Source: a virus. From it: 25,057 bases of DNA. Under the pieces are notes generated by a model. The model searched no databases, was not told where the DNA came from, and worked only from the letters and a program-made list of their open reading frames with translations. The position numbers and the translations under genes were made by a program. Below, in pieces: positions 3,842 to 19,120 of this stretch; position 1 is the stretch's first letter; every line of letters starts with the position of its first letter. Where the stretch lies: IMG/VR virus record IMGVR_UViG_3300013126_000225, positions 1 through 25,057 of that record, one strand, 5' to 3'.

Positions 3842-4884
3842 CGGACAAGTCAGCACTCGCCCTGAAATGGGAAGCGTTGATGGCGGGGGGCGAAAGCCCC
3901 CCGTCCCCGTCTGTGGCGGAAACGAAGACGCACACCTACTACCGTCCGCTGGAGGAAGCGGCACACGAGTTTGTGCGATGGGCGCAGTCCCCACACGAAC
4001 GCATCTACACGGGCTTCACCGATCTTGACAACGAGATGCGTGGCATAGCCGCAGGCGAGATGTGTCTCGTCATCGGCTACAGCCACAGCGGTAAAACGCT
4101 CACGCTGTTGGAGATGCTGAAAGCCAACCGTAACAAGAACATCGTGTACTTCGTGCCCGACGAACCTCGCACCCTTGTCCTCATCAAGTTGGCGTGCGTA
4201 ACCCACGGTGTCAATGCGATAGACTTGGAACGCATGGTGTCCGCAGACGAACCCGAAGCGATTGATCTGCTGAAGCAGACAGCCAACGAGTTCTTCCCGA
4301 CGCTCGCCGTGTTTGACCAGCCGATGTCGTTGTCTGATATGGAGCGTGCGATGGGTGAGGTGACGGACATGTGGGGTCAGAAGCCTGACCTCGTTGTGTT
4401 TGATTACCTTGAACTGCTTCAGGGCGGTGGCGAAGACGTGCCGTCCAAAGCCAACACGTTGAAGGCATGGGGGCGACGACATGATGTGCCGTTGCTTGTG
4501 CTTCATCAGACTTCACGTTCGTCTGGTGCTGACGGCAAGCGTCTCACCATCTCGTCTGGTGCGTTCGGCGGTGAACAGCAGGCTACACACGTCGTTGGTG
4601 TGCGTCGCAAACGGTTTGAGATTGAATCGCAAATCCGAGAACTGGAAGCCAAGCTGGACAAGTCCACCGCATCGGAACGCACGATGGAACAGTTGGACAG
4701 TCTGCGGTATGATGCACGCATCCACGCACACACGCTCACCCTCAACTTGGTGAAGAACAAGCGTCCTGCTGGCAACTTGCTGGACGACATTGACTTTGAG
4801 ATTGAGCAAGGGACAGGTCGCCTTACACGCTTGCGTGACGGCGAACTACCATCCCAGTTCTATGGGGTGGTGCGTTGTGGGTGA
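3838..4884 (+). CDS. RecA/DnaB-fold ATPase, probable replicative helicase
   Basis: The product is 348 aa from the GTG at 3838, chosen because it overlaps the preceding stop (GTGA) and has GAGGTG (3828-3833) four bases upstream. The protein has one RecA-type ATPase core: the lead-in IYTGFTDLDNEMRGIAAGE is the usual DnaB/RadA opening, Walker A is GYSHSGKT at about 80-87, Walker B is DLVVFDY ending near 190, and LHQTSR at about 222-227 is the sensor/H4-like motif. A Lys/Arg segment (VVGVRRKR, about 252-259) is followed by a charged coiled coil (about 260-300) and a final strand region (TLNLVKNKRP). A DnaB N-terminal domain is absent, as in short phage helicases. Next to a primase, loading and unwinding at the fork is the likely job; a RadA/KaiC-like recombination ATPase is the alternative. 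Confidence 0.85.
   Translation: MTDKSALALKWEALMAGGESPPSPSVAETKTHTYYRPLEEAAHEFVRWAQSPHERIYTGFTDLDNEMRGIAAGEMCLVIGYSHSGKTLTLLEMLKANRNKNIVYFVPDEPRTLVLIKLACVTHGVNAIDLERMVSADEPEAIDLLKQTANEFFPTLAVFDQPMSLSDMERAMGEVTDMWGQKPDLVVFDYLELLQGGGEDVPSKANTLKAWGRRHDVPLLVLHQTSRSSGADGKRLTISSGAFGGEQQATHVVGVRRKRFEIESQIRELEAKLDKSTASERTMEQLDSLRYDARIHAHTLTLNLVKNKRPAGNLLDDIDFEIEQGTGRLTRLRDGELPSQFYGVVRCG
3882..3905 (+). promoter_or_regulatory. GC hairpin with GAAA tetraloop in early helicase codons
   Basis: CGGGGGGC (3884-3891) pairs exactly with GCCCCCCG (3896-3903) around GAAA, a GNRA-type tetraloop; one G-U and one G-C pair extend the stem. It lies 44 bases after the GTG start, within codons for AGGESPPS. The seven-C run at 3821-3827, next to the helicase Shine-Dalgarno, could pair with the same G-run instead. 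A regulatory role is inferred. Confidence 0.45.
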
Positions 4885-5767
4885 CATCGTGGACGACTTC
4901 GTCACCCTGTTCCGTGGCCGTGGCGACTGCTACGGTGCGTGGGAGGGAGGATGCGTCCGTGAGCCTCTGCGAGCCACGACATTCAAGGAGCATCTGTTCG
5001 GTGAATCATTCATCGGCGTGTATCCGTGTGTACCGCACAACGGTGAAACAATGTGCGTGTGGGGATGCTCCGACATTGACTACGACAACCCCGATCACGC
5101 ATGGCTCCTACACGACGCCTTTGAGGCGGCTGGGGTTCACTCGTGGGTTGAACGCACACGTCGTGGCTATCACATTTGGGTGTTCACACCCGAACTAATT
5201 GAGGCGAAGTACATGAGGCGAATGTTTCTGGCGGCACATCAGGTCGCAGAACTTCCTGCCAAGGAAGTGAACCCGAAACAAGAGACACTCATGAGAGGTC
5301 AAGTGGGCAACTATGTGCGTCTCCCCTACCCCAACGACGGGACAGGGCGACGTGCCATGGTCACCAGAGACTTGACACCCATCGCCTTGGACACGTTTGT
5401 GGCAGACGCATTCAACAAGTACACGTCGGCTGACACAATCATCCGACTATCCAACTACTACCGTCCACCCACAATCTCGCATGTGGCAACACCACCAACA
5501 CATGACATGACAGAATCCGCGAGACGGCTCACGCCGCTCGGACGCACCATCTTCCGTGATGGCCCGTTGGAAGGGCGTGACAGGTCAACAACCCTGACAC
5601 ATCTCGCACACGAATGCAGGAAGGCAAACCTCAATCCCGAGGATGCCATGTCAATTTTGGAGGATGCTGATACACGATGGGGCAAGTACATGATCAGGGG
5701 CGAAGCAGGCAGAATGGAACTGGAAAAGTTGCTGGTACGAGCGTACGGTCACACTCCGTCTTCATAG
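4877..5767 (+). CDS. archaeo-eukaryotic-type primase (AEP / prim-pol-like)
   Basis: I took the GTG at 4877, which overlaps the helicase stop by eight bases and has GGGGTGG (4864-4870) upstream; the ATG at 4862 would add five residues and cannot be excluded. The product is about 296 aa. CSDIDYDN at residues 64-71 carries the D-x-D metal-binding motif (Asp66, Asp68) of AEP primases, and RTRRGYHIWVF (about 93-103) supplies the conserved Arg-Gly-x-His motif of the second active-site strand. A further conserved-looking stretch is VGNYVRLPYP. The C-terminal third (after about 200) is a helical region that in this family is a helicase-binding or PriCT-like domain. It makes primers at the fork together with the adjacent helicase. 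No zinc-binding domain of the DnaG type is present. Confidence 0.82.
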   Translation: MGDIVDDFVTLFRGRGDCYGAWEGGCVREPLRATTFKEHLFGESFIGVYPCVPHNGETMCVWGCSDIDYDNPDHAWLLHDAFEAAGVHSWVERTRRGYHIWVFTPELIEAKYMRRMFLAAHQVAELPAKEVNPKQETLMRGQVGNYVRLPYPNDGTGRRAMVTRDLTPIALDTFVADAFNKYTSADTIIRLSNYYRPPTISHVATPPTHDMTESARRLTPLGRTIFRDGPLEGRDRSTTLTHLAHECRKANLNPEDAMSILEDADTRWGKYMIRGEAGRMELEKLLVRAYGHTPSS

Positions 5768-6090
5768 AGGGCAAACCGCACCCGAAAGAACGAGCCAGAG
5801 TCACAGCACGAAACGGCAAAGCGTTCGCCTACACGCCAGCCAAGACTGTCGATGCGGAAAAGAAGATTGCTGAAGCATGGGACGGCCCCGTGTTCCACGG
5901 CGAGGTGGCAGTCCACATCGTCGTGGACAAGGAGGGCACAGCCATCATCGTAGAACGCATCGACATTGAAAGCAAGTCCTCTTTGCGAGGGGATCTCGAT
6001 AACTACGTAAAGACGATCCTTGATGGACTCAACGGTGTAGCCTGGGTTGACGATTCGCAAGTAGTCAAGATTGTGGCGATCAAAGCATGA
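5677..6090 (+). CDS. RusA-like Holliday junction resolvase
   Basis: The conserved RusA core is clear: FIEGKPHPKERARV at 29-42, then the catalytic segment GDLDNYVKTILDGLNG (Asp106, Asp108, Lys112) and VDDSQV (Asp125, Asp126). These match the three Asp and one Lys needed for cutting four-way junctions in RusA. From the ATG at 5677 the product is 137 aa, with about 27 unusual residues before the conserved start, all encoded inside the primase gene. No other standard start lies closer to the core; GGAGG (5658-5662) is 14 bases away. So either the start is 5677 with a long overlap, or a non-standard start is used. The enzyme resolves recombination or replication junctions before packaging. Stop and next start overlap (ATGA). 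Confidence 0.85.
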   Translation: MGQVHDQGRSRQNGTGKVAGTSVRSHSVFIEGKPHPKERARVTARNGKAFAYTPAKTVDAEKKIAEAWDGPVFHGEVAVHIVVDKEGTAIIVERIDIESKSSLRGDLDNYVKTILDGLNGVAWVDDSQVVKIVAIKA

Positions 6091-6551
6091 GCAACTTCAG
6101 AGACCAAAGCTGGGCGAACCGACTTGGCGTAATGGGAGACACCGCAGAGAAAGCGTTTCTGTCAGTCCACCCGTACGCCCACCGTGTCGGGCTCAACCGC
6201 CCCGACTTTGATGTGAGGGGCATGCTAGACCCCATGAGATACGCACCCGACTTCATGACCTCAACATTCATGTATGAGGTCATGGGATGCACGTCTCGTG
6301 GAGACGGGAAACTCAAAGTCAAATTTGAGAAACTGTCGGCACTCGCCACATGGTCATGCATCGGCCCAGTCCGAATCTGGATTTGGGACTCAGGACGCAA
6401 ACGCTACTGGGACGCAACCCTGGAAGACTGGACGAAAGCATGTCACGCCCACGGGGAAGTCGCACGATTCCCCGACAACAACAAACCATACTTTGCTCTA
6501 CCCATAGACAAGTTTCCTGCGGAGCCGATCAGGCATGATTTTCAACCCTGA
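6087..6551 (+). CDS. hypothetical protein, possible PD-(D/E)XK nuclease fold
   Basis: The product is 154 aa from ATG 6087, overlapping the resolvase stop. The middle has RYAPDFM (Asp55), YEVMG (Glu64) and KLKVKFEKLSAL (Lys75, 77, 79), an order and spacing reminiscent of the Asp...Glu-x-Lys pattern of phage VRR/T7-endonuclease-like nucleases. IWIWDSGRKRYW follows as a likely beta hairpin. I have seen similar 'PDF...YEVxG...LKxxKxxAL' proteins in actinobacterial phages, but the exact E-x-K is not present, so the catalytic claim is tentative. The operon position among recombination genes agrees with a nuclease. There is no membrane segment or signal. It ends with a 17-base overlap of the next gene. 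Confidence 0.6.
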   Translation: MSNFRDQSWANRLGVMGDTAEKAFLSVHPYAHRVGLNRPDFDVRGMLDPMRYAPDFMTSTFMYEVMGCTSRGDGKLKVKFEKLSALATWSCIGPVRIWIWDSGRKRYWDATLEDWTKACHAHGEVARFPDNNKPYFALPIDKFPAEPIRHDFQP

Positions 6552-7308
6552 CATCTATGCGACAGAGCCACGCAACGAAGCCGAATGGCTTCTCCAACTA
6601 GGCGACATCCCCTACAACACCGACACCGCACACATCGACACGGTAATCCAAGCAGTAGAACGACTGTCGCCGCAATCCAAACTGTGTGTAGAAGCCATCT
6701 TCTATGAGCGCATCCCCTACAGCCAACTAGGGGAACGGCTCGGCTGTAGCAAGCCTCACGCATGGAGGCTTGCGCAGAAAGCAATGGACGAACTACGCAG
6801 ACAACTCATCAACCAACCATCAATCAACAGGAGGTACAACATGTTCCGCAACTGGAACGAAGCATGCTGGTCACAGCTGGAAGAAGTCAACGACGTAATC
6901 ACCATCACCACAAGCGAAGAAGGTTTGAGCCACGTCCAATCCTTGCTTGTCGTCTACGTGGATGAGAAGGGCGACCCGTTTGCCCCCGACATCCACGACC
7001 TGTTCAAGTCCGTGGCCCTGCACGCCATCAGTTACCTGCGTGACTACGACATCAAACTGAACGACGTACACGATCTGCTCTGCTCCAAGCAGGCAGATTA
7101 CGGTCACGAGAACATCCTCGCTTTCGGAGACATTGGCATTTGCGTCCGCATGTCAGACAAGATTGCTCGTATCAAGAACTTGCGCAACAAAAACGCGATG
7201 AATGAGTCCCTAATGGACTCTTGGCTCGATCTTCTGGGCTATGCTGTTATCGGCCTCATGTTGCTGGCCGACACTTTCACCCTACCTTTGGAGAAGAACA
7301 ATGACTGA
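6535..7308 (+). CDS. sigma-region-4-like HTH joined to DUF1599/Nmad1-like domain
   Basis: A single uninterrupted frame of 257 aa holds two parts. Residues 35-92 look like a sigma-70 region 4: LSPQSKLCVEAIFYERIPYS, then the HTH LGERLGCSKPHAWRLAQKAM and DELRRQL. Residues about 160-250 match the DUF1599 (nucleotide modification associated domain 1) pattern: KQADYGHENI, then GICVRMSDKIARIKNL and ESLMDSWLDLLGYAVIGLM, with the conserved DYG, R-x2-DK-x2-R and acidic residues near the end, a MazG-like helical bundle linked to nucleotide metabolism. Residue 103 is a Met preceded by a strong internal ribosome binding site, so the Nmad1-like part may also be made alone (155 aa). The normal state in other phages is separate genes; the frame here shows no stop between them. 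The HTH part might direct transcription or bind phage DNA. Confidence 0.78.
   Translation: MIFNPDIYATEPRNEAEWLLQLGDIPYNTDTAHIDTVIQAVERLSPQSKLCVEAIFYERIPYSQLGERLGCSKPHAWRLAQKAMDELRRQLINQPSINRRYNMFRNWNEACWSQLEEVNDVITITTSEEGLSHVQSLLVVYVDEKGDPFAPDIHDLFKSVALHAISYLRDYDIKLNDVHDLLCSKQADYGHENILAFGDIGICVRMSDKIARIKNLRNKNAMNESLMDSWLDLLGYAVIGLMLLADTFTLPLEKNND
6829..6843 (+). promoter_or_regulatory. internal Shine-Dalgarno and ATG for a 155-aa product
   Basis: AGGAGG at 6829-6834 is a perfect core Shine-Dalgarno, six bases before an in-frame ATG at 6841. It is the strongest ribosome binding site on the plus strand here, yet lies in the middle of an open frame. Initiation would give the Nmad1-like domain alone, ending at 7308. 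Confidence 0.65.
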
Positions 7309-7940: not shown

Positions 7941-8401
7941 CGAACAGGATTCAACAAACAACCGAACACCGCATCAACATAGGCGGCATCTTTGGCGACG
8001 GCGGGACTGAGTTCAACATGAATCCAGTTCCCGCCACGGCCAATCGACTTCTTCTTATACACAGTCCAATCACCACGATTGCAATACCAGCCACGACCCC
8101 AATCACCATAACGATAATCGTGGATAGCCTCAATGCCGAACGCCTCAGCGTTCCGCACACAGAAATCAACAAACGCCAAACCGTCCTCACGGTTGACGTA
8201 ACCGAAATCGATCGCCCGACCAGTCGCATGAACCGAATACTTGTCGGAACCTCTGATCTTTCGCACCTGAAACGAACCATAGTTCTTTAGCTTCCCACCA
8301 TTCAGAAACAAAACCATGTTTTTGAACCGCTCCGTACCAGCCAAATAACCATTGGCAATCCCATCAAACCCCGTGTACTTGCGCTTCCTCATCTCACTCA
8401 C
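7937..8401 (-). CDS. endolysin, M15-type zinc peptidase domain
   Basis: The product is 154 aa from GTG 8401, which overlaps the upstream stop by eight bases; ATG 8392 would remove three residues. SVHATGRAIDFGYV (His58, Asp65) and NWIHVELS (His128, Glu130) form the S-x-H-x2-G-x-A-x-D ... W-x-H-x-E signature of M15-type D-Ala-D-Ala carboxypeptidase/L-Ala-D-Glu endopeptidase lysins, in which the two His and the Asp bind zinc. The family cuts peptide cross-links in peptidoglycan. There is one domain only, no wall-binding repeats and no signal peptide, so release would need a holin; none is obvious among its minus-strand neighbours. It is the last gene of the structural operon, the usual place for lysis. 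Being carried in the virion is an alternative. Confidence 0.8.
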   Translation of the reverse strand: MSEMRKRKYTGFDGIANGYLAGTERFKNMVLFLNGGKLKNYGSFQVRKIRGSDKYSVHATGRAIDFGYVNREDGLAFVDFCVRNAEAFGIEAIHDYRYGDWGRGWYCNRGDWTVYKKKSIGRGGNWIHVELSPAVAKDAAYVDAVFGCLLNPVR

Positions 8402-11400
8402 CAGCCGCTTTCTTCCTCAACGCTTCCTGCTCGATCTGTCGTCGCCTCTGCTCCGCCCGACGCATCTCAGGCGTAACCGTCTTCAACGGCACACCGAAAT
8501 ACGACAGAATAGAACCACCCTGCTTGCCCTTATACAAATCCGTAGCAGGCAACAAACGCTCAGTTTGTGCCAGCGGAGGCAACAAGTTCATCAACGCATA
8601 ATTCAACTTCGGATCAACACCCATCTCACCCTCACGAGTACGCTTCTCCTGACCCAAGATAGAAGCCAACGCCGCCACAGCACCAGACGCAGGGCCGCCC
8701 ATCGGTTGCTCGCCACGCTCACTAAACGGCACATCATTATAGAAACGACGCTCACCCAACAACTCGACAGGCACACGCAACGCAGGGTTCACATACGAAA
8801 GCAACCGCTTCGGATCTTTCAACTCGTTGAACTGCTGGCTAATCCTATTGAAACCAAGATCAGGCGCAAGATAAGTGTTCGCCCCAACCTTGATACCACC
8901 CTGCTCCTTCAACCAAGAAGGAACCATCTCGTCCTCATCATCCTGGGCGACAGACTTCATAGCCTTCTGATAAATCAGATAGGCGCGAGGATTCTCATAC
9001 TGGTTCACAATCTGCATCGGCAAGTTGCGAGACATCCAGAACCAGAACGGAATGATAGACCGCATCACCTCATCGCCAGCACTCGTTGCCTCATAATCAA
9101 ACAGATAACGCTTTACCCGTGCTGTCGCCGCATCAAAGTCCGCACCCTTACGCACAGAGTCCCACGCCAGAATAAACCGTGCCGAACCCTCAGACACCTC
9201 GTTGGCCTTACGGAACGTATTCACCCAACGGTTATTGACAAGCCACTTGCGCTTCGGGTTGAAAGCCTGAACAGCCTCCATGCCTCGGCCATAGCCTGAG
9301 GCATCCATCGCAGCAACCGCAGTCTCAACAAGGTTGCGTCGAGAAGCAGGTAGAGAAGCGATCCAAGCCGCCTCCTTGCCCTCAGCCGCCGCACGACGCC
9401 ACAGATTGTACAACTCCAATCCTTGCGTCATGCTCTTCACATCGGCACCAGCTGCAAACAACATGAACGTGTTGCCCATCGTGTTACGCACAACGAACCC
9501 AGGCGACGACACAGCATACGCTTTGAAGAAACTGGTGTACTTCGTCAAGAACGGTGTCAGGCCACGCACAAACTCTGGCTTGCTCAAACGGTTCAAGTTC
9601 ACCGACATCTCGGACAGCCACTTTTGCGCCTGATAAGACGGCAAGCCGATGCTCGCAAGACTCTTGAATCCCTTGGAGACCTTCTCCTCGACGGTACGTC
9701 CAAACGTGCCGTCGTCGATGAACTTCTGGAACGAACGGTACAGTTCGTCATGCTTGTCCGCCATGAAGAAATTCACCTGGTTGATTAGGAAGTCGTTGCG
9801 CAACTTCTCCAACACGGGCATCATCTCGGGGTTGGTCTTAGCCAACTCGGGGCCGTTGCGACCAATCACTTCTTCAAGTTCATCCAACAGGGCCAACACG
9901 AAAGGAAGATCCTTCGGATCTTTCACCTTGCCAGCAGGGAACTGTTCCTCGACACGCTTAGCGTAGTCGCTCAGATCGGCGACATACTTCTCCAAACGCT
10001 GTGCGTTCTCCGAATACTGTGCGTCTCCGTAGGCGATGGTGGCCGCCTCAAAAGTGTCAATAGCCTCGTCGTAAGCCTTCTGCGCCTTGGCAACATTTGC
10101 CTCAGCTTTCTCGCCTTCCTTCAACATGGCCTTGCCACGGGCCTGCTCGTCCTTGGCCACACGAGCCTTCACCGTCTTCGTGGCCTTTTCCCACGCAGCC
10201 GCCTCGGCTTCCATAGCACCGATGCGTGCCATCAAATAATCTTGCTGATCGGAGAAGATAGACCTTCCATTGGCCATCATGTAATTGCGGGCAATGAAAT
10301 CTGCTTCGTCGAGAAGATCGCCCATCTTTCCGAGAAGCGAATCATAATCAGCGATCTTGGCGACACCACCAAACTCGCCCTTCAACAAATTCTTCTTCGG
10401 CAAACGAGGAACAACCTTCTCAAGTTCCGCACGCATCATCGCAACAATCTCAACAGGACTCTTGCCAGCATTCTTCTTGTTCGCCATCAACTCACGGAAA
10501 CGAACCTTCGCATCATACTGACCACCAGTTTGCTTAGTGACAAGATCCAACAGATCATCGAAGTTCTTCTTTGTCGCCGCCGCAACCCCACGACTCACAT
10601 CAATGGCCATACCAAACTTATCTACTGCGCCAAGACCAGCGACGGCTTCTTCTGTCGCCTGACCCTTGGCTACGAGACGGCGACTTACGGCGTCGCCTTT
10701 GTCGCTCAAAGCAATTTGTGTGCGGTCAAGCAATCTATTCATCTTGTTTTCATCGGCCACAATTGCACGTTGGATGCGTGCGCCGACAGAAGCGTTGAGT
10801 TTCGCCATGCGCTCAACGGCAAGCCGTTCGTCTGATCCTTTCCATGCGTCATCAAGGAACTTCAAACGTGCCCGAACCGTATCATCCGTAGCTTTGCCGC
10901 TTACTGCCGCTATCGATTCGGCAATGTCGCCCATAGTAATTTCGCCCATCGAAATCAAGGTAGAAAGTCTATGGGCTTTCTGAAGCGCAGAATTTCGCAC
11001 AATCGGATCAGCCGCATCAATACGCATCTGCGCCTTAGCGTATTCACGACGCAAACTAACCATGTCACGACGCAACTCTTCAGCAATACTTTCATTCAAA
11101 TTGCGTTGCACATCATACTCAGCCCGACTAATCTTGCGACGCCTAAAAGCGTCGTCAAGACGAATGCTCTTCTGCTCAACAGCACGAATCTCTTTCCCGA
11201 CACGCGACAACTGCTGCTGGACTTCCTGCTGGGCCTGCCACAACGGACGCATCTCCTTCGTCAAACGACCTGGCGACGACAAAACAGAAACATCAGGTAC
11301 AACTTGGCCCTGCACAATCGGCATAAACAAGGCTTCAATTTCCTTGGGATCAAATTTGGGCCCAATAGCAACATCGTTCGGAACGCCTGCCAACAAATAC

Positions 11401-14400
11401 GATTTACGACGACTCAACCCATCAATCTTTTTGCGAATAGCCTCAGAAACATCTCCCGATTGAGATACCTGCAAATCGTATGTGTCAGATGAAACCATCC
11501 TACCCTTTTCGGCAGGATTGATAGAAAGAGAGTAATCCTTTTCAAGGCGAGCAATCTCTTTGTCCAACTGTTTGACTTGCTCGTCAACACTACTGCTCCA
11601 ACCAGTAATCGGCTTGAACTCATCAATAGAACTTTCCCTTGGCGCACCAAAATTGAGCAACTCTTTGTCGGCTTCGTCACGGATCTTGTCGGCCTGCGCC
11701 TTATTGGCGGCAGCCTTCTTCGGATCTGTCGTAAACTTCGCTTCCAAACTGTCAGCTTTTTCAATCGCCTTCTGATGTCTACGCTGAGCAGAAATCCATT
11801 CGGGGCTATCCTTGCCAGATGCAGTTCGCTTTTGGGCCGAACGTGTGCCGATAGGAGAACGTGTATAGAACGTGGCGTTCTCGGCTCGGCTTGCATCTTT
11901 GGCAAACTTATCTAGTTCTTTCAAAGAAGCCAGCTTCACGTATGTGCCATCCCCCTTGGCCACATAAACATCAGTACCACGATTGAAAGTCTGTCTGGCA
12001 ATAGAGACATCACGAGATTTACTCTTCAAAACAAACGTATCGGAGGGATCAAGTTGAGCCAACAACTTGATAACCTCATTCAACTGTTGACGCTCAACAC
12101 CAGACAAATAATTCGGATCATTACTCAACTCCGAAATCTGCTTGTAGGCCTCACGAGCCAACTTCAAATCATCGCTAGAGAACTCACGATACGGCTCGCT
12201 CTGCCCCACATAAGGACGCACAGGGCCACCCACACCCTCCACATCCTCGACAGTACGCCGAGCGGCGCCAGCACGCTTGGCTTTCTTCTCCGCAACAGCA
12301 ACTTCACCAACAAGCTTACGGCGCTCAATACTCAATGAAGCGATCCTGTCACGCTCCAACAACAAATCATTGTAGGTGCGGCGAGCCACATCGGCAATAA
12401 ACGTAGGCATCGCATCACCACGAACAGCACGAACACCTTGACTAGCCATACTGGGGGTGGAGAACGGATCAGCCATCGCCAACATGCCTCGGAACTGGCG
12501 TCGAGTCGCACGAGCCTGATTGCCCATAATCGCACTAACGGAAGCCAACCAAGAAATCATCTCCTCACGAGAAGCATCCTCGGCAATAGAACCATACGCA
12601 CGACCACGCTCAACAGCCTGAGTACGAATCTGATCCTGGCCAGAACGCACAGCCTTCAACACCGCACGCTTCTCGGCTTTCTCCGAAGCCTTCGGCGCAT
12701 ACACATTCAAAGCATTCTGGATCTCAGCATACGTGACACGCCCCTTAGAACGGCCAGTCACACTACGATACCAAGGAATCCACTCTTCCTTCAACAGGCG
12801 GGCACGCTTAGCAGACATCTCCTTGTAGGAACGACCAGCCAAACTCGCAACGATCTCCTGCTTCTCACTAACTGTCGTCGCTTTCCTCAACTCGATTTCG
12901 AGTTTGCGTACACGCTCCAACTCGCCACGGGCACCAGTACGACCACCATACAAATCGAAGCTACGACGAATCTCGTAGCTGCTAGCCGAACCAGCGTGCT
13001 TCGACAGATGAACATTGCCATTGTTCGCACGGAGAAAACGTGTGATCTCATCGTGGAGCGAAGCGGCATCTGCGTGCTGGCCCTCAAGGGCGGCACGATA
13101 GATCTTGTCAAGCCCATCAGAGACATCGTACAAACTAGAAATCTCACGTCGTGTGTCGCCAACAAATTCCTGTGCGACCTTCTGATAAATGCGCTGTCCG
13201 ATAACTTCATCGGGCACCAACCCGACAGGAATCAAAGTATCGGTTATGGCCTTCATTCGACGCTCTGTTTCAAAAGCAAACCAAGCGTCGATAATGTCGC
13301 TCTTCGCTTTGTCGCCAATCTCGCTAGCCCAAGTCGGGCTTACGCCATCAACACGAATCTTCGGGTTGATCTTACGCAACCTGCTGGACTCAGACTGAAT
13401 ACGTCCCAGGAGGGAGGCCTGAGCGACTTCCTGCTCCTGCAACTCCTTCAAGTAAAACTTGATAATCACCTTACGCAGTTCCGCTTCGGGTTGCGGAGTC
13501 AAACCGCCAGCGGCCTTCGCTTGCTCAACCCTCAAGCGTTCCTTCAGGTTCTTCACACCACCTGCAACACGCTCGCTGGGTTCGACGGCACGACCGCCAG
13601 TCGTAGCCCTACCGCCACGACCTTTAGCCTTTGGCCCAGGCTCAGCCAATCCCGATGCGGCCCGTCCCAGCGAAGCTACTTCTTCGTTTGTTCTGGCGGG
13701 GCCAGGAGTGATGGTCGTATCCAATGATGCTGGAGTGCGCCCACTCAACATCAACTCAACAAAGCTCGTGATGTCATCGGCATCACCGCTAGCAACAATC
13801 TCATCAATGTCGTCGATAAATCGCATTGCGTTGAAACTGACAGAACCAACCTTGGTCGCTTCTTGGCCAAACTTCTGTGCAGTAAAGTCAACTTGCTGCT
13901 GGAACCCAACCTTGCTTTCGGCAAGGGTTGTCAAACTCTTGACGAAATCGTCGAACGAATCCAACTGTCCTTCAAACGTGTCATCCAAATAGTTGGCGAA
14001 ATGTGTTTGCAAAGAATCAAACTCTGTCTTAGCCAAGAAGGTGCCGACAAAAGCGCGAGGGTTCTCATCGTAAGCTTTGCGTGCCATCGCTTCGGTGACA
14101 GTCGGCAAACCCTGCCGTTCAAACCTGTTGACACCCATGATCTCGTTCAACATCTTGTTGGACGAATAATAAGTCATGACAGCCGCAGTCACATCATCGT
14201 AAACTTTCTGATAGTTGTTTACGACTCTTTCAACACGAACAAACTCTTTGTTCTGACGGGCTTCGGCCAGCAACTTCTTCCATTGCGACAGTTCCCCCAT
14301 GCGACGCAAAGAACCATTATCCGTAACACCGTCCATCTCGAACATGCGACGCAACGCTTGTTCGGTGCGTGAACTACGAGACAAAGCGCCATCGCTGACA

Positions 14401-16775
14401 GCATCCATCCAAACAATGGCAGCCCGAATGTCGTCGATCTCGGCTTCGCCACGAGCAGCAGTACGCACAACATCCAACACAGTTTCGGGAGTAAACTCCC
14501 GCAACTTCTTCATAGAAATCTCTGCCTGACCATTGATAGCCTTGAACTTCGGCGAAGCAACATAATCAGCCAACACCTTGTCACGCCCACCAGCAATTCG
14601 GACATCGCCACGAGCAGACTTCTTCACGTCACGCAACATCTCTGCGCCGACAGCAGAGTCGGGAATGTTCTTGCCGTCAATCACATCGTCGATGTGCATC
14701 TGAAGCGAGTTGCCGAACTGGAACATGATCTCTTCTGTTTCACGCAAAGCAGTAATCTCATCCTCGATCTGCTTCAAACGTGCTGTCGTCTGCTCTGCGC
14801 TAGACATGATGTCAGTCAAATTGGAGCGCATGTGCTCAATGCTTCGCAACGCCCTCTGATGCTGCTCTTCCAAACCTCGGACAAGATCAGGAACCTCATC
14901 ATCAAACATGTTTGAAATAGCCATACTGGTTTCGTTCATCACACGAGACATCTCATCAAGATGCTCTCGTGTGCGAACAACCGCACGACCAGCAAGCTCC
15001 ACCGCCTCATCGGCGGCAGCAGTACCCTTAGCCCAAGCATCCAAACGCCCCTCAGCGTTCTTCAACCTGCCGCCAGTAACCTCATCGATAACCTTGCGGA
15101 TGTCATCAACGGACTTCTGAACAACCTTGGCCGCATTAGAACGATTCGCCGCCATCTCATTCATCGACCTACGCAAAGCCTTGACAGCATCCTTGTCCAC
15201 CTTGTCGACACGCTCCAACTTCTGGAACACACCCTTATCAACAAGATACTTCTTGCGGGCAACCATACCCATCTGCTCCGCATAACTGCCAACATACTTA
15301 TCCATCACAGCCGCAAGGTTCGTCTCAAAGAAGTCCCCCTTATAGCCAGCATTACGAGCGATCTCATTCAGACGCTCAATCTTCAAATCATCAACACCAA
15401 GCTTCACGCCAAAGAACAAATCGTCAGCCATCATACGAGGCTTGAAAGCACCAGCAGGATCAAGAGGGTTATAGATAACCTCACGCAAACCACGAGCAAA
15501 ATCGCTTTGGCTTGAAGTCACAAACCTCATCGCATCATCCGTCAACACGTGAGGGAAATACTGGCTCACCTTACGTGTCGTCGCATTCGGGTCTACGGCA
15601 CGAGCCGCACCATCAACACGACCCCACAAATCATCAAACCACGAAACAACACGATCATACACAACGCGATCAGTAGCACCCAACGTATCGAGAGCAACAG
15701 CACCCTCCAACGCCTTATACAAATTCGGTGTAGCAGAACGATAGCTCTGCTCACCGACATCACCCACCAACTGTCGTAGCGACGCCTGCGCATAACGTGC
15801 CTCAGCCGCCTTGGCGGCACGCCTAGTGTTCTCCGAAGCAACCATACGCAAATACGTTTCAACACGCTCACTCGGAGCAGTACCACGAGCCAAAGCCTTA
15901 CGGGCTTCCTTCACATCATCCAACGTAAAAAATTCGTTGGCACGCTTGAAGAAATGATCGCCGCTCCACACACGCATGGAGGTCAATCCCTTCTCAGCGG
16001 ATTGACCGACACGAGTAGTGCCCTTGATACGCTTCCCCATGAAATAGACGCCAGCACGCTCCAAGCCAACCTGCTGGAACACATCATCCGAAAGCGTCGA
16101 CATAGCGGAACGACCGTAGCGTGCCACCTGCTTCGCAAGTTCCGCATTGCCCGTCTTATCCAAAACTCGTGTAGCCAAGGCCTCACGGCCCGCACGTCCT
16201 GTAACACGCACGCCCTTAGTACCAGCCTCAACAACATCGTCGATCTTGCCGACAGCCCCCAAAGCCTTGTTGGCCCCAAAGGTCACGTAGGTGAGCGGGT
16301 CTGTAATAATGTCGCCAGCCAAACCAATGAGACGATTACCCCACTTCGCCCAACCAGAATCACCCTCAAATACGTCGCCAGTCAACGAGCCGAACCCGTA
16401 AATCGGGTCGGCTACGTTCTTGGTGAAATCGTTCCATGAGGCCACAGTATTCGGATCGCCATCAAGGGCATCCCTGATCTCCTCAATGGAAGCGACGACA
16501 GCACGCCCAGGCATGGAAATAACTTCGCCTGCCTTGACGACAACTTTGCCGATGGGCGACTCGATAACGTCTGTCAGGAATCCCTTCCAGCCGCCTAGTT
16601 CAGGCTGGTTGGCTTTCGCTACATCTCCAGCCCAATAGTCCTTGCGCAACGGGTTATCTAGTTGCGTGGAGTTGACGAGGTTCTGGCTCCTCATTACGTC
16701 CTTCAGGGACTGTACTGCGGAACGCCCCTCTAGGCGAGGATTGACAAAGCCTTTATTGGAGTCGTAAACAGCCAT
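8394..16775 (-). CDS. giant virion protein (2,793 aa), probable internal/ejection protein
   Basis: ATG 16775 is used; a TTG at 16778 precedes it directly and the Shine-Dalgarno is weak. The gene is one third of the window. Near the N-terminus (about 149-167) GLAGDIITDPLTYVTFG is a stretch I recognise from very large phage proteins; it follows a helical lead-in. Residues about 320-2380 are dominated by charged, Ala-rich helices with long coiled-coil potential, broken by a Gly/Pro/Arg linker (about 1010-1070, with PGPKAKGRGGRATTGG). The C-terminal part has SSPGFVVRNTMGN (about 2421), FDYEATSAGDEVMRSIIPF and WFWMSRNLPMQI (about 2560-2590), motifs shared by giant phage minor structural proteins. 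I saw no transglycosylase or peptidase motif. By position, after fibres and before lysin, and with no tape measure gene, it is likely packed in the head and ejected with DNA. The family name is uncertain. Confidence 0.75.
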   Translation of the reverse strand: MAVYDSNKGFVNPRLEGRSAVQSLKDVMRSQNLVNSTQLDNPLRKDYWAGDVAKANQPELGGWKGFLTDVIESPIGKVVVKAGEVISMPGRAVVASIEEIRDALDGDPNTVASWNDFTKNVADPIYGFGSLTGDVFEGDSGWAKWGNRLIGLAGDIITDPLTYVTFGANKALGAVGKIDDVVEAGTKGVRVTGRAGREALATRVLDKTGNAELAKQVARYGRSAMSTLSDDVFQQVGLERAGVYFMGKRIKGTTRVGQSAEKGLTSMRVWSGDHFFKRANEFFTLDDVKEARKALARGTAPSERVETYLRMVASENTRRAAKAAEARYAQASLRQLVGDVGEQSYRSATPNLYKALEGAVALDTLGATDRVVYDRVVSWFDDLWGRVDGAARAVDPNATTRKVSQYFPHVLTDDAMRFVTSSQSDFARGLREVIYNPLDPAGAFKPRMMADDLFFGVKLGVDDLKIERLNEIARNAGYKGDFFETNLAAVMDKYVGSYAEQMGMVARKKYLVDKGVFQKLERVDKVDKDAVKALRRSMNEMAANRSNAAKVVQKSVDDIRKVIDEVTGGRLKNAEGRLDAWAKGTAAADEAVELAGRAVVRTREHLDEMSRVMNETSMAISNMFDDEVPDLVRGLEEQHQRALRSIEHMRSNLTDIMSSAEQTTARLKQIEDEITALRETEEIMFQFGNSLQMHIDDVIDGKNIPDSAVGAEMLRDVKKSARGDVRIAGGRDKVLADYVASPKFKAINGQAEISMKKLREFTPETVLDVVRTAARGEAEIDDIRAAIVWMDAVSDGALSRSSRTEQALRRMFEMDGVTDNGSLRRMGELSQWKKLLAEARQNKEFVRVERVVNNYQKVYDDVTAAVMTYYSSNKMLNEIMGVNRFERQGLPTVTEAMARKAYDENPRAFVGTFLAKTEFDSLQTHFANYLDDTFEGQLDSFDDFVKSLTTLAESKVGFQQQVDFTAQKFGQEATKVGSVSFNAMRFIDDIDEIVASGDADDITSFVELMLSGRTPASLDTTITPGPARTNEEVASLGRAASGLAEPGPKAKGRGGRATTGGRAVEPSERVAGGVKNLKERLRVEQAKAAGGLTPQPEAELRKVIIKFYLKELQEQEVAQASLLGRIQSESSRLRKINPKIRVDGVSPTWASEIGDKAKSDIIDAWFAFETERRMKAITDTLIPVGLVPDEVIGQRIYQKVAQEFVGDTRREISSLYDVSDGLDKIYRAALEGQHADAASLHDEITRFLRANNGNVHLSKHAGSASSYEIRRSFDLYGGRTGARGELERVRKLEIELRKATTVSEKQEIVASLAGRSYKEMSAKRARLLKEEWIPWYRSVTGRSKGRVTYAEIQNALNVYAPKASEKAEKRAVLKAVRSGQDQIRTQAVERGRAYGSIAEDASREEMISWLASVSAIMGNQARATRRQFRGMLAMADPFSTPSMASQGVRAVRGDAMPTFIADVARRTYNDLLLERDRIASLSIERRKLVGEVAVAEKKAKRAGAARRTVEDVEGVGGPVRPYVGQSEPYREFSSDDLKLAREAYKQISELSNDPNYLSGVERQQLNEVIKLLAQLDPSDTFVLKSKSRDVSIARQTFNRGTDVYVAKGDGTYVKLASLKELDKFAKDASRAENATFYTRSPIGTRSAQKRTASGKDSPEWISAQRRHQKAIEKADSLEAKFTTDPKKAAANKAQADKIRDEADKELLNFGAPRESSIDEFKPITGWSSSVDEQVKQLDKEIARLEKDYSLSINPAEKGRMVSSDTYDLQVSQSGDVSEAIRKKIDGLSRRKSYLLAGVPNDVAIGPKFDPKEIEALFMPIVQGQVVPDVSVLSSPGRLTKEMRPLWQAQQEVQQQLSRVGKEIRAVEQKSIRLDDAFRRRKISRAEYDVQRNLNESIAEELRRDMVSLRREYAKAQMRIDAADPIVRNSALQKAHRLSTLISMGEITMGDIAESIAAVSGKATDDTVRARLKFLDDAWKGSDERLAVERMAKLNASVGARIQRAIVADENKMNRLLDRTQIALSDKGDAVSRRLVAKGQATEEAVAGLGAVDKFGMAIDVSRGVAAATKKNFDDLLDLVTKQTGGQYDAKVRFRELMANKKNAGKSPVEIVAMMRAELEKVVPRLPKKNLLKGEFGGVAKIADYDSLLGKMGDLLDEADFIARNYMMANGRSIFSDQQDYLMARIGAMEAEAAAWEKATKTVKARVAKDEQARGKAMLKEGEKAEANVAKAQKAYDEAIDTFEAATIAYGDAQYSENAQRLEKYVADLSDYAKRVEEQFPAGKVKDPKDLPFVLALLDELEEVIGRNGPELAKTNPEMMPVLEKLRNDFLINQVNFFMADKHDELYRSFQKFIDDGTFGRTVEEKVSKGFKSLASIGLPSYQAQKWLSEMSVNLNRLSKPEFVRGLTPFLTKYTSFFKAYAVSSPGFVVRNTMGNTFMLFAAGADVKSMTQGLELYNLWRRAAAEGKEAAWIASLPASRRNLVETAVAAMDASGYGRGMEAVQAFNPKRKWLVNNRWVNTFRKANEVSEGSARFILAWDSVRKGADFDAATARVKRYLFDYEATSAGDEVMRSIIPFWFWMSRNLPMQIVNQYENPRAYLIYQKAMKSVAQDDEDEMVPSWLKEQGGIKVGANTYLAPDLGFNRISQQFNELKDPKRLLSYVNPALRVPVELLGERRFYNDVPFSERGEQPMGGPASGAVAALASILGQEKRTREGEMGVDPKLNYALMNLLPPLAQTERLLPATDLYKGKQGGSILSYFGVPLKTVTPEMRRAEQRRRQIEQEALRKKAAGE

Positions 16776-16793
16776 CAATAATAGGGCGGGCTG

Positions 16794-17876
16794 TTACATG
16801 CCCTGGAGGCCCAAAGCCCGTCTACGCAGGGCTTCGGTCAACGGTGTACGACCCTGCATCCCCAAGGCAATCTTCTCGCCCAGAAGCCTGTTAGCCCCCA
16901 TAGCCTGGTTCACGAGTAGTTGCTTTTGGAGTCTGGCGTACTCGTCACGTTCAGACTGAACGGACTCTTGTACGGCTTTGCCCAACATCCTAAGGTTTTC
17001 CCGTTCTTCTTCTTGGCTAATTTCACGGCGTTTTGACGCAGACTCTTCAGCGTGTTGCTCAGCCAGAATGTCGGCACGAGTTCTCAAGGCAACTGGATCT
17101 CCCGATCCCCTGCGTATTACGGCAGTCTTATCTGGCCCGCCACGAACAACCGCAGATTTTTCCTCACCGCCACGAACAACCGCAGAACGATCCCTGCCAT
17201 AATCAATGGCTATTCTGTTGTCCTCGACCCTCACCCCCTCTGTCGGCGCAGAAGGGGTGATCTTGGCCAGCATCCTCTGCTCAGCCAACTTTGCGGCACC
17301 AGCCAAATCCTTCTCCTTATTCGACAAATCACCCTGCATCTTCTGCAAACGAGAAAAGAACGCCATCAAATCGTCCGACACAGGCATGTTCGTAACATCG
17401 AACTCTTCGGTCGGCTGAGGCAAACCAGCCTTACCGAAGATGTTCCCAGCCTCGGACTCCAACAAATCCTGATCGTATTTGATGCGAGCGGCCAAATCCC
17501 GCTCCTTCTCATCAAACATTTCCCTCACAGCACTACGAAGACCGTCCAAAGACAAACCCTGCTTGACCTCAGTTTCATAAGTGAAACCCAAACCATTATA
17601 CAAAGCCGCAACAGCAGAAGCCTCATCAAGGCTCCCGCTTTGGATACCCGAAGCAACATCACGCCACAACGGATTACTGCTATTCAAATACGAATCAAGC
17701 CTCGGCGTATTCGACACATACGGGGCAGGCAACACATACGACGACTCATACGTGTCACCAGTAACACCATACTGAGGGTTGAACAAATACGACGACAAAT
17801 CCTGCATCGTGTTCACAGACTTCGGATTCACCCCACTCAACATCTGCAACATCATCTCATAAGTATTGGACATCAT
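16794..17876 (-). CDS. probable internal virion protein with 10-aa repeats (360 aa)
   Basis: ATG 17876 overlaps the preceding stop (ATGA); the next codon is also ATG and is better spaced from GGGGGT upstream, so residue 2 may be the true start. The product is 360 aa. The N-terminal part is Ser/Tyr/Asn-rich (about 25-80); the middle is helical and charged (MFDEKERDLAARIKYDQ, LSNKEKDLAGAAKLAEQ); residues about 229-258 hold three tandem 10-residue repeats of the form SAVVRGG; the end is a long charged helix and a short LTEALRRRALGLQG tail. No enzyme motif is seen. Placement directly before the giant protein suggests a second internal or ejection protein that acts with it. The function is inferred from position only. 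Confidence 0.65.
   Translation of the reverse strand: MMSNTYEMMLQMLSGVNPKSVNTMQDLSSYLFNPQYGVTGDTYESSYVLPAPYVSNTPRLDSYLNSSNPLWRDVASGIQSGSLDEASAVAALYNGLGFTYETEVKQGLSLDGLRSAVREMFDEKERDLAARIKYDQDLLESEAGNIFGKAGLPQPTEEFDVTNMPVSDDLMAFFSRLQKMQGDLSNKEKDLAGAAKLAEQRMLAKITPSAPTEGVRVEDNRIAIDYGRDRSAVVRGGEEKSAVVRGGPDKTAVIRRGSGDPVALRTRADILAEQHAEESASKRREISQEEERENLRMLGKAVQESVQSERDEYARLQKQLLVNQAMGANRLLGEKIALGMQGRTPLTEALRRRALGLQGM
17137..17186 (-). repeat. 30-bp-period tandem repeat (SAVVRGG units)
   Basis: CCGCCACGAACAACCGCAGA occurs exactly at 17137-17156 and again at 17167-17186. On the coding strand this gives SAVVRGG twice; a third, diverged unit (TAVIRRG) lies at about 17107-17126. The spacing is 30 bp, ten residues, so recombination between copies would change length without shifting frame. 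Confidence 0.85.
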
Positions 17877-19120
17877 CGACCCCCAAGCTGAGCCATCAGA
17901 CGAGAAACATCAACACCCTGGGCCGCCAACTCCAACAGACGCTCCTGCAAACTGCCACGAACAGACTGCTGACCCTGACGCTCCTGCAACAACGTCTGCA
18001 AACGCTGCGAACCCAAACTGTTCAGAATGTCGTTCAACTGACCCGACACGCCAAGGCGGGCCTGCAGAGCCTGCTGACCCAAACCCAACCTCTGCTCATC
18101 AAAACGGGCACGCTGAGCCATCTCCTGCTGATTACGCTGGTTCAACAACTGCAAAGCAACCGCACGCTGATTTGCACCCAAATCCTGCTGTGCGCCAGCA
18201 CGAGCAACATTCACATCACCAATACGAGACTGCTGGGCCGCAGTCTGCGAAGCACCCAACAGTTGCGCCAAATTATTGAACGCATTGCCTGTCGCCGCAT
18301 TCTGGGACTGCAACATCGCCTGCAACGCATCGGTACCACCAGAAGGCGCACCAACAGCCTGCGAATAAGCGGCCATCGGATCAGTCACCGCAGGAGCCGC
18401 CAACATCTGCAAACCAGCATACGGATTCTGCTGGGCTTGCAACGCCTCCAACGCACGCTGAGTCGTATCATCAATCGTCTGCCGCCCTTCGGCGGTCTGA
18501 CGATCAACCTCACCAGTAGCCTGCGTATACATGTTCGCCAACTGCGACAACATGTCAGCATTGCTTCGCTCCAACTGGCTTGTCTGCTCACCAAACAACG
18601 AGTTGATCAAAGCATCCTGACCAGAACTACGCTCGCTGATTTGACGTATCAGATCATCGTAGCCTGACTGGATCATCCCAGTATTGTCTGGGAGCGACGA
18701 CGACAGCTGGGCGATAGCCGACATCAGATTTGCCCCACCACCACCACCACCACCGCCAATAGTGGGCGGGGTTGTACGAGCATTAGCCGCATTGCTCATC
18801 ATAATCGCACGCTGAACATCCGCAATGTCCGAATACTTACCGAGACCGCTAGCAGTCACATCACCAGCATCAAAAGCGGCCATAGCCGCTTGTGTCGCAG
18901 GATCATCCCATTGCCAAATCGGCGTAGCCTGACCATACTCGTCCATCACCTTAGTGAAGGTCTCACGAGGCGCAACACGGGTCGTACCCGTAGGAGCAGG
19001 AGCCTGCGAAGCGGGCGTCTGCGCACGACGCTCAGCCACATCAGCACTAGTCGTGGGTGTACGCCGACGACCAGGCTGAATGCGACGCTCTTGTGAATCC
19101 GCAGAACCATAACGTGCCAT
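17873..19120 (-). CDS. Gln/Ala-rich probable internal virion protein (415 aa)
   Basis: ATG 19120 is chosen because GGGGAG lies six bases upstream; earlier TTG at 19126 would sit on top of it. The product is 415 aa. It starts basic and disordered (ERRIQPGRRRTPTT), with a Pro/Ala/Thr stretch (about 35-55), then eight consecutive Gly (about 120-127) as a flexible linker. The rest, from about 140 to the end, is helical and very rich in Gln, Ala and Leu (ALEALQAQQNPYAGLQMLAA, LLQERQGQQSVRGSLQERLL), with no cysteine. Low complexity and coiled-coil character fit a scaffold-like or ejected internal virion protein; scaffolding normally lies next to the capsid gene, which is remote, so ejection is preferred. 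No named family is recognised. Confidence 0.65.
   Translation of the reverse strand: MARYGSADSQERRIQPGRRRTPTTSADVAERRAQTPASQAPAPTGTTRVAPRETFTKVMDEYGQATPIWQWDDPATQAAMAAFDAGDVTASGLGKYSDIADVQRAIMMSNAANARTTPPTIGGGGGGGGANLMSAIAQLSSSLPDNTGMIQSGYDDLIRQISERSSGQDALINSLFGEQTSQLERSNADMLSQLANMYTQATGEVDRQTAEGRQTIDDTTQRALEALQAQQNPYAGLQMLAAPAVTDPMAAYSQAVGAPSGGTDALQAMLQSQNAATGNAFNNLAQLLGASQTAAQQSRIGDVNVARAGAQQDLGANQRAVALQLLNQRNQQEMAQRARFDEQRLGLGQQALQARLGVSGQLNDILNSLGSQRLQTLLQERQGQQSVRGSLQERLLELAAQGVDVSRLMAQLGGR
18633..18652 (-). repeat. dispersed 20-mer, copy 1
   Basis: Read on the coding strand this is CTGATACGTCAAATCAGCGA, encoding LIRQISE in the Gln/Ala-rich protein. Nineteen of twenty bases match the copy at 19636-19655 in another gene of the same operon. 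Confidence 0.75.
18734..18757 (-). repeat. GGT triplet run encoding eight Gly
   Basis: Six GGT codons in a row, flanked by GGG and GGC, encode the Gly linker. Such a run is prone to slippage in whole codons, which would change linker length but not frame. Confidence 0.85.

Follow-up and report, generated by a model that had tools for sequence, protein, structure and literature searches.

A phage gene joining a sigma-70 region-4-like helix–turn–helix to a DUF1599/Nmad1 domain retains a conserved internal start and is predicted to yield two products

In this work we describe a gene that is, most probably, a nested in-frame two-product phage gene, derived from two coupled genes that became fused while the start of the second one was retained. 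It lies on the plus strand of a 25-kb virus record (25,057 nucleotides, called the window below; all coordinates are positions in the window). The open frame at 6535–7308 runs uninterrupted for 257 amino acids with no internal stop, and joins an N-terminal helix–turn–helix (HTH) to a C-terminal DUF1599/Nmad1 domain. Inside it, a Shine–Dalgarno (SD) sequence, AGGAGG, occupies positions 6829–6834 in the codons of Arg99 and Arg100, and is separated by six bases from an in-frame ATG at 6841–6843, which opens a 155-amino acid inner gene (6841–7308, plus strand) in frame with the long product. The initial annotation of this DNA placed the frame, the AGGAGG and the ATG exactly so, and its idea that one frame gives two proteins is strongly supported by the conservation of the inner start among relatives: judged from sequence, the gene very likely yields both a 257- and a 155-amino acid product.

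AGGAGG is rare in the window (three occurrences on the plus strand and two on the minus strand). Of 2901 candidate start codons, only 26 have a calculated anti-SD duplex that matches or exceeds in strength the one at 6841 (−11.7 kcal/mol), which also slightly surpasses the duplex of the full-length start at 6535 (−11.2 kcal/mol). That the internal SD is more than a chance occurrence follows from comparative tests. In the first set of fused relatives, the codon for residue 103 is ATG, GTG or TTG in 29 of 30 distinct sequences, and AGGAGG, GAGGT, AAAGG, AGAAGGAGA or AAGAAGG is found a short distance upstream of it; some SDs of relatives are just four bases long. The mean SD score peaks at this codon among all codon columns, and a start codon with an SD is present there in 17 of 18 representatives, compared with 2 of 18 at the invariant Met242 and none of 18 at position 178. 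When synonymous codons were shuffled within each gene, the observed SD score was reached in none of 5000 trials, with 18 sequences and also with 9 spread ones, and in a wider set, in which a script counts 23 of 25 with a start and an SD against 4.5 expected, this was reached in none of 2000 trials; these shuffles ignore shared ancestry, which makes the p-value too small, and arginine columns within the same genes are the fairer control. Among the lineages that retain Arg-Tyr at this point, Arg100 is encoded by AGG in 11 representatives and by AGA in the three of one separate lineage, whereas the invariant Arg68, Arg78, Arg205 and Arg212 of the same genes use five to six codons each. Moreover, synonymous constraint measured over five-codon windows is at its strongest around codons 96–102, on which the seven top-ranking windows of the gene are centred. 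The initial proposal of an internal start is thus upheld by conservation at the nucleotide level across relatives, and internal initiation is very probably under selection, as far as codon conservation and synonymous constraint can tell.

One lineage (L185), in which AAAGGAAACGGAAAC stands immediately 5′ of an in-frame ATG, was missed by the script, whose nominal position was too early; counted by eye with L185 included, an SD followed by ATG, GTG or TTG is present at the junction in 24 of 25 representative lineages. L032 (around 4280–4330) is a true exception, the sole fused relative with a non-standard junction codon (ATC) and with a weaker SD (GAAG upstream); internal initiation may have been lost or displaced in this lineage. 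The mRNA around the internal start shows no notable structure (z 0.41), and we therefore propose no structural switch.

The initial annotation had suggested that the two halves be searched separately for fused or neighbouring occurrences; this was done, and both arrangements were found, the upstream gene being the same in each. Searching with an alignment built from the first relatives identified 38 other virus contigs in which a single frame contains both parts, as well as 32 that have only the HTH. The gene upstream of the fusion (6087–6551, plus strand; alignment A3), of unknown function, overlaps the start of the fusion gene at 6535 by 17 nt and served as a synteny marker for finding split relatives; searching with it added eight fused contigs, making 46 other fused contigs in all. 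A search of genome_contigs returned no relative. In nine relatives, eight IMG/VR contigs and MW202803, the HTH and DUF1599 are two genes in different frames that overlap by 8–26 nt, and the eight contigs have the same upstream gene as the fusion locus. The second gene of the split pair starts with ATG and has its SD in the last HTH codons, mostly as AAGGA(G/T)TAYTTARATG; judged from this arrangement, DUF1599 can in these phages only come from a start behind such an SD. Near its N-terminus the split DUF1599 protein has a Trp-(Asp/Asn/Glu)-x-Ala-like motif, which the fusion also carries, after residue 103. MW202803, the best phage record, had appeared as a fused relative over 85% of the query, an assignment that we rejected: the HTH part of the tblastn alignment crosses a stop in the wrong frame and is spurious, and the record has two overlapping genes. 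The HTH, DUF1599 and upstream genes are not annotated in this arrangement there (L012, 7853–8852), the deposited record being featureless at 17441–18232. Searching with the MW202803 HTH gave no relatives, and querying deposited phages with the HTH alone likewise gave no match.

These arrangements suggest a model in which two translationally coupled neighbours, HTH then Nmad1, acquired continuous frames, most simply once and early in the phage group, and in which the start signal of the second gene would have stayed under selection after fusion. In a tree of the DUF1599 domain, all 25 fused forms fall to the same side of a branch that has 98/93 support and recurs in every bootstrap tree; this tree is rooted by midpoint only, and the order 'split first' is a parsimony argument. 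The HTH-only relatives would be a later stage. In this subclade, the HTH gene ends a little beyond the junction. The gene after it (58–61 amino acids) lies in another frame and begins 32 nt before the HTH stop codon, in most cases with GAAAGG, written in HTH codons, ahead of its start; in the closest fused subclade this small gene comes after the fused gene and overlaps it in the same way. This small conserved gene (MKTRQITVGFDVEVS...) overlaps the preceding gene, in another frame, by about 32 nt both in L051–L082 (HTH-only) and in L033–L050 (fused). DUF1599 was absent from the eight HTH-only contigs checked, which may be incomplete. We rejected the HTH-only form as the ancestral state, as in a DnaB tree HTH-only phages form one clade (89/99) among fused ones; the simplest reading of these sequences is that Nmad1 was lost from a fused ancestor.

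The initial annotation had also considered that the fusion might be a recent event, a stop before 6841 having been lost, or that a sequencing error had hidden this stop, in which case the true state would be two genes. Relatives with two separate overlapping genes do exist, in keeping with this possibility. Nevertheless, the fusion is shared by the 46 other contigs, which represent deeply diverged lineages with constant spacing, and the fused forms group together in the DUF1599 tree. Because identity to the window goes down to about 32% among these contigs and residues 58–121, across the junction, are gap-free in 18 representatives, both a recent event and a sequencing error are ruled out for practical purposes, with a probability that we regard as close to nil.

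It could also be argued that the fusion alone is made, and that the AGG codons and the Met, Val or Leu at position 103 are kept for the sake of the protein or for translational pausing. The AGG-coded arginines and residue 103 do lie within a conserved linker, but conservation acts at the codon level, as shown by the contrast between Arg100 and the four invariant arginines above; residue 103 varies between Met, Val and Leu yet its codon is nearly always a start codon, and the same region is the start of the second gene in split relatives. We therefore consider this explanation very unlikely. Conversely, the inner gene might be the one mainly used, with the HTH as a relic leader that is hardly translated. 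The slightly stronger duplex of the internal SD and the fact that stand-alone Nmad1 proteins are common in viruses would fit such a situation. However, the HTH half is under purifying selection (dN 0.09, dS 0.49, window versus L001), which acts on both halves of the fusion; the recognition stretch SKPHAWR (residues 72–78) is invariant in alignment A2; and one subclade kept the HTH while losing Nmad1. We consider a relic leader very unlikely as well, and we retain the reading in which both starts are used.

The N-terminal part of the fusion contains a sigma-70 region-4-like HTH (residues 41–88; 6655–6798, plus strand), recognized by Pfam Sigma70_r4 (E 2e-6, 27.7 bits for a curated cut-off of 24.1) as well as by its invariant columns, which confirms the initial assignment. 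In an hmmsearch against the PDB, the HTH matches sigma factors, with 7e-7 to a FliA-type protein, and by Foldseek it matches region-4 domains with a probability of 1.00 but an E-value of about 0.3. Both the sequence and the predicted fold of the HTH are therefore those of sigma-70 region 4. A complete sigma factor has region 2 as well as region 4, whereas Pfam and PDB profile searches matched region 4 alone and found neither region 2 nor region 3; identity as a complete sigma factor was thus rejected.

DUF1599 (PF07659) is, by family name, nucleotide modification associated domain 1 (Nmad1). It is matched by the whole 257-amino acid protein (E 6e-5) and by the C-terminal part alone (E 2.6e-5, 24.9 bits, marginally below the cut-off of 25), as well as by 36 of 36 members of alignment A5 (best 7e-9), and PHROG_1485 matches the C-terminal part with 7e-15, so that the DUF1599/Nmad1 call made initially stands. 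The conserved core covers residues 185–245 of the fusion (7087–7269, plus strand; Pfam DUF1599 over residues 83–141 of the inner product), and the invariant columns of A5 and A6 read KQxDYGHxNI ... DKxxR ... NESxxDxxxDxxGY. The C-terminal domain is, by profile, a member of the PF07659/PHROG_1485 family, but the PF07659 relatives that we found are mostly stand-alone proteins of about 105–150 amino acids, whereas in the present gene it is joined to an HTH. In one contig (L010, 4746–5225) a stand-alone DUF1599 gene is broken in two by a stop codon following NNGI, its parts succeeding each other in a single frame; the break is either a stop mutation or an assembly error.

The AlphaFold model of the 155-amino acid chain has a mean pLDDT of 90.4 and consists of helices only, and since the first helix starts at residue 5, the inner start coincides with a domain boundary. 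The inner product, which in split relatives is encoded by a separate gene, is thus predicted to be a complete all-helical domain. In the full-length model the region-4 helices are followed by the same all-helical domain. A Foldseek search of a viral structure library gave one clear match to the inner domain, a 273-amino acid phage protein (E 2e-7); the remaining matches were non-significant, several of them being named NTP-PPase or MazG-like (best E 0.23, probability 0.87). PDB profile and Foldseek searches with the Nmad1 domain gave no significant match. The predicted inner product shares an all-helical fold with the all-alpha NTP pyrophosphatases (MazG-like), but given the lack of a Pfam or PDB match and a best viral structure E-value of 0.23, we did not assign it to this group; its conserved residues presumably do not correspond to the classical MazG motif. 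Invariant charged residues lie on the last two long helices of the model (D106, K107, R110, E122, D126 and D130, in inner-product numbering) and could, we infer, form an active site. Literature searches found no functional study of Nmad1/DUF1599. A nucleotide-hydrolase or base-modification role is possible for this domain, as a tentative assignment.

Our observations suggest the following scheme. Initiation at 6535 would give the 257-amino acid protein, with its sigma-4-like DNA-binding domain at the N-terminus and DUF1599/Nmad1 at the C-terminus, and initiation at the 6829/6841 signal would give the 155-amino acid Nmad1 protein alone, both products presumably being made in infected cells. The Nmad1 domain may act on nucleotides; the long form might carry it to DNA or to RNA polymerase, while the short form might be a free enzyme, perhaps also entering mixed oligomers with the long form. 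As there is no stop between the domains, the HTH without Nmad1 cannot be made from the fused gene except by proteolysis, whereas Nmad1 without the HTH, according to the sequence, can. The long form may be a DNA-tethered or autoregulatory version, although this is less likely than not. A more elaborate scheme must be regarded as unlikely: a nucleotide- or base-modifying enzyme would exist in two forms, one of them equipped with a sequence-specific HTH for docking on RNA polymerase or at a conserved site in the phage DNA, which would couple local nucleotide processing or modification to transcription or replication, and the internal start, kept since fusion, would set the ratio of the two forms.

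Inner starts are known in other phage genes. The T7 gene 4A/4B primase-helicase exists as 63- and 56-kDa forms, and its inner start gives a product without the N-terminal nucleic-acid-recognition part. Like the fusion, it is a protein of two domains from the replication region of a phage and has an inner start, but the two share no homology, and the zinc-binding segment alone is left out in T7, whereas the inner product described here leaves out the whole HTH. The closest working analogy is lysA of mycobacteriophage Ms6: a second gene (lysA241), preceded by a consensus ribosome-binding site, lies within it in the same frame, its product is the C-terminal part of the endolysin, and both products were shown (PMC3111421). 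An inner in-frame start behind a ribosome-binding site and a C-terminal inner product are thus common to both genes, although the endolysin is an unrelated protein, the two products are here predicted from sequence, and the inner product of the fusion is a whole domain that forms a separate gene in relatives.

The interest of this locus is that overlapping coupled genes, an in-frame fusion with an inner start, and the loss of one half form a traceable series at one place in related phage genomes, which shows a route from operon overlap to a multi-domain protein with a separate product kept. It also becomes directly possible to test what DUF1599/Nmad1 does, both alone and joined to a DNA-binding partner. 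Gene callers assign a single start to each stop and would overlook the conserved second product predicted here.

On its 5′ side, the fusion gene is preceded by genes for an exonuclease, a DnaB-like helicase, an AEP-type primase and RusA, and by an uncharacterised gene. The primase-like protein, encoded at 4790–5767 between the DnaB-like helicase and RusA, matches the archaeo-eukaryotic primase domain of TOTE conflict systems (Pfam AEP-TOTE, E 1e-15). Facing these early genes on the minus strand, a single open frame of 2794 amino acids (8394–16778) takes up one third of the contig.
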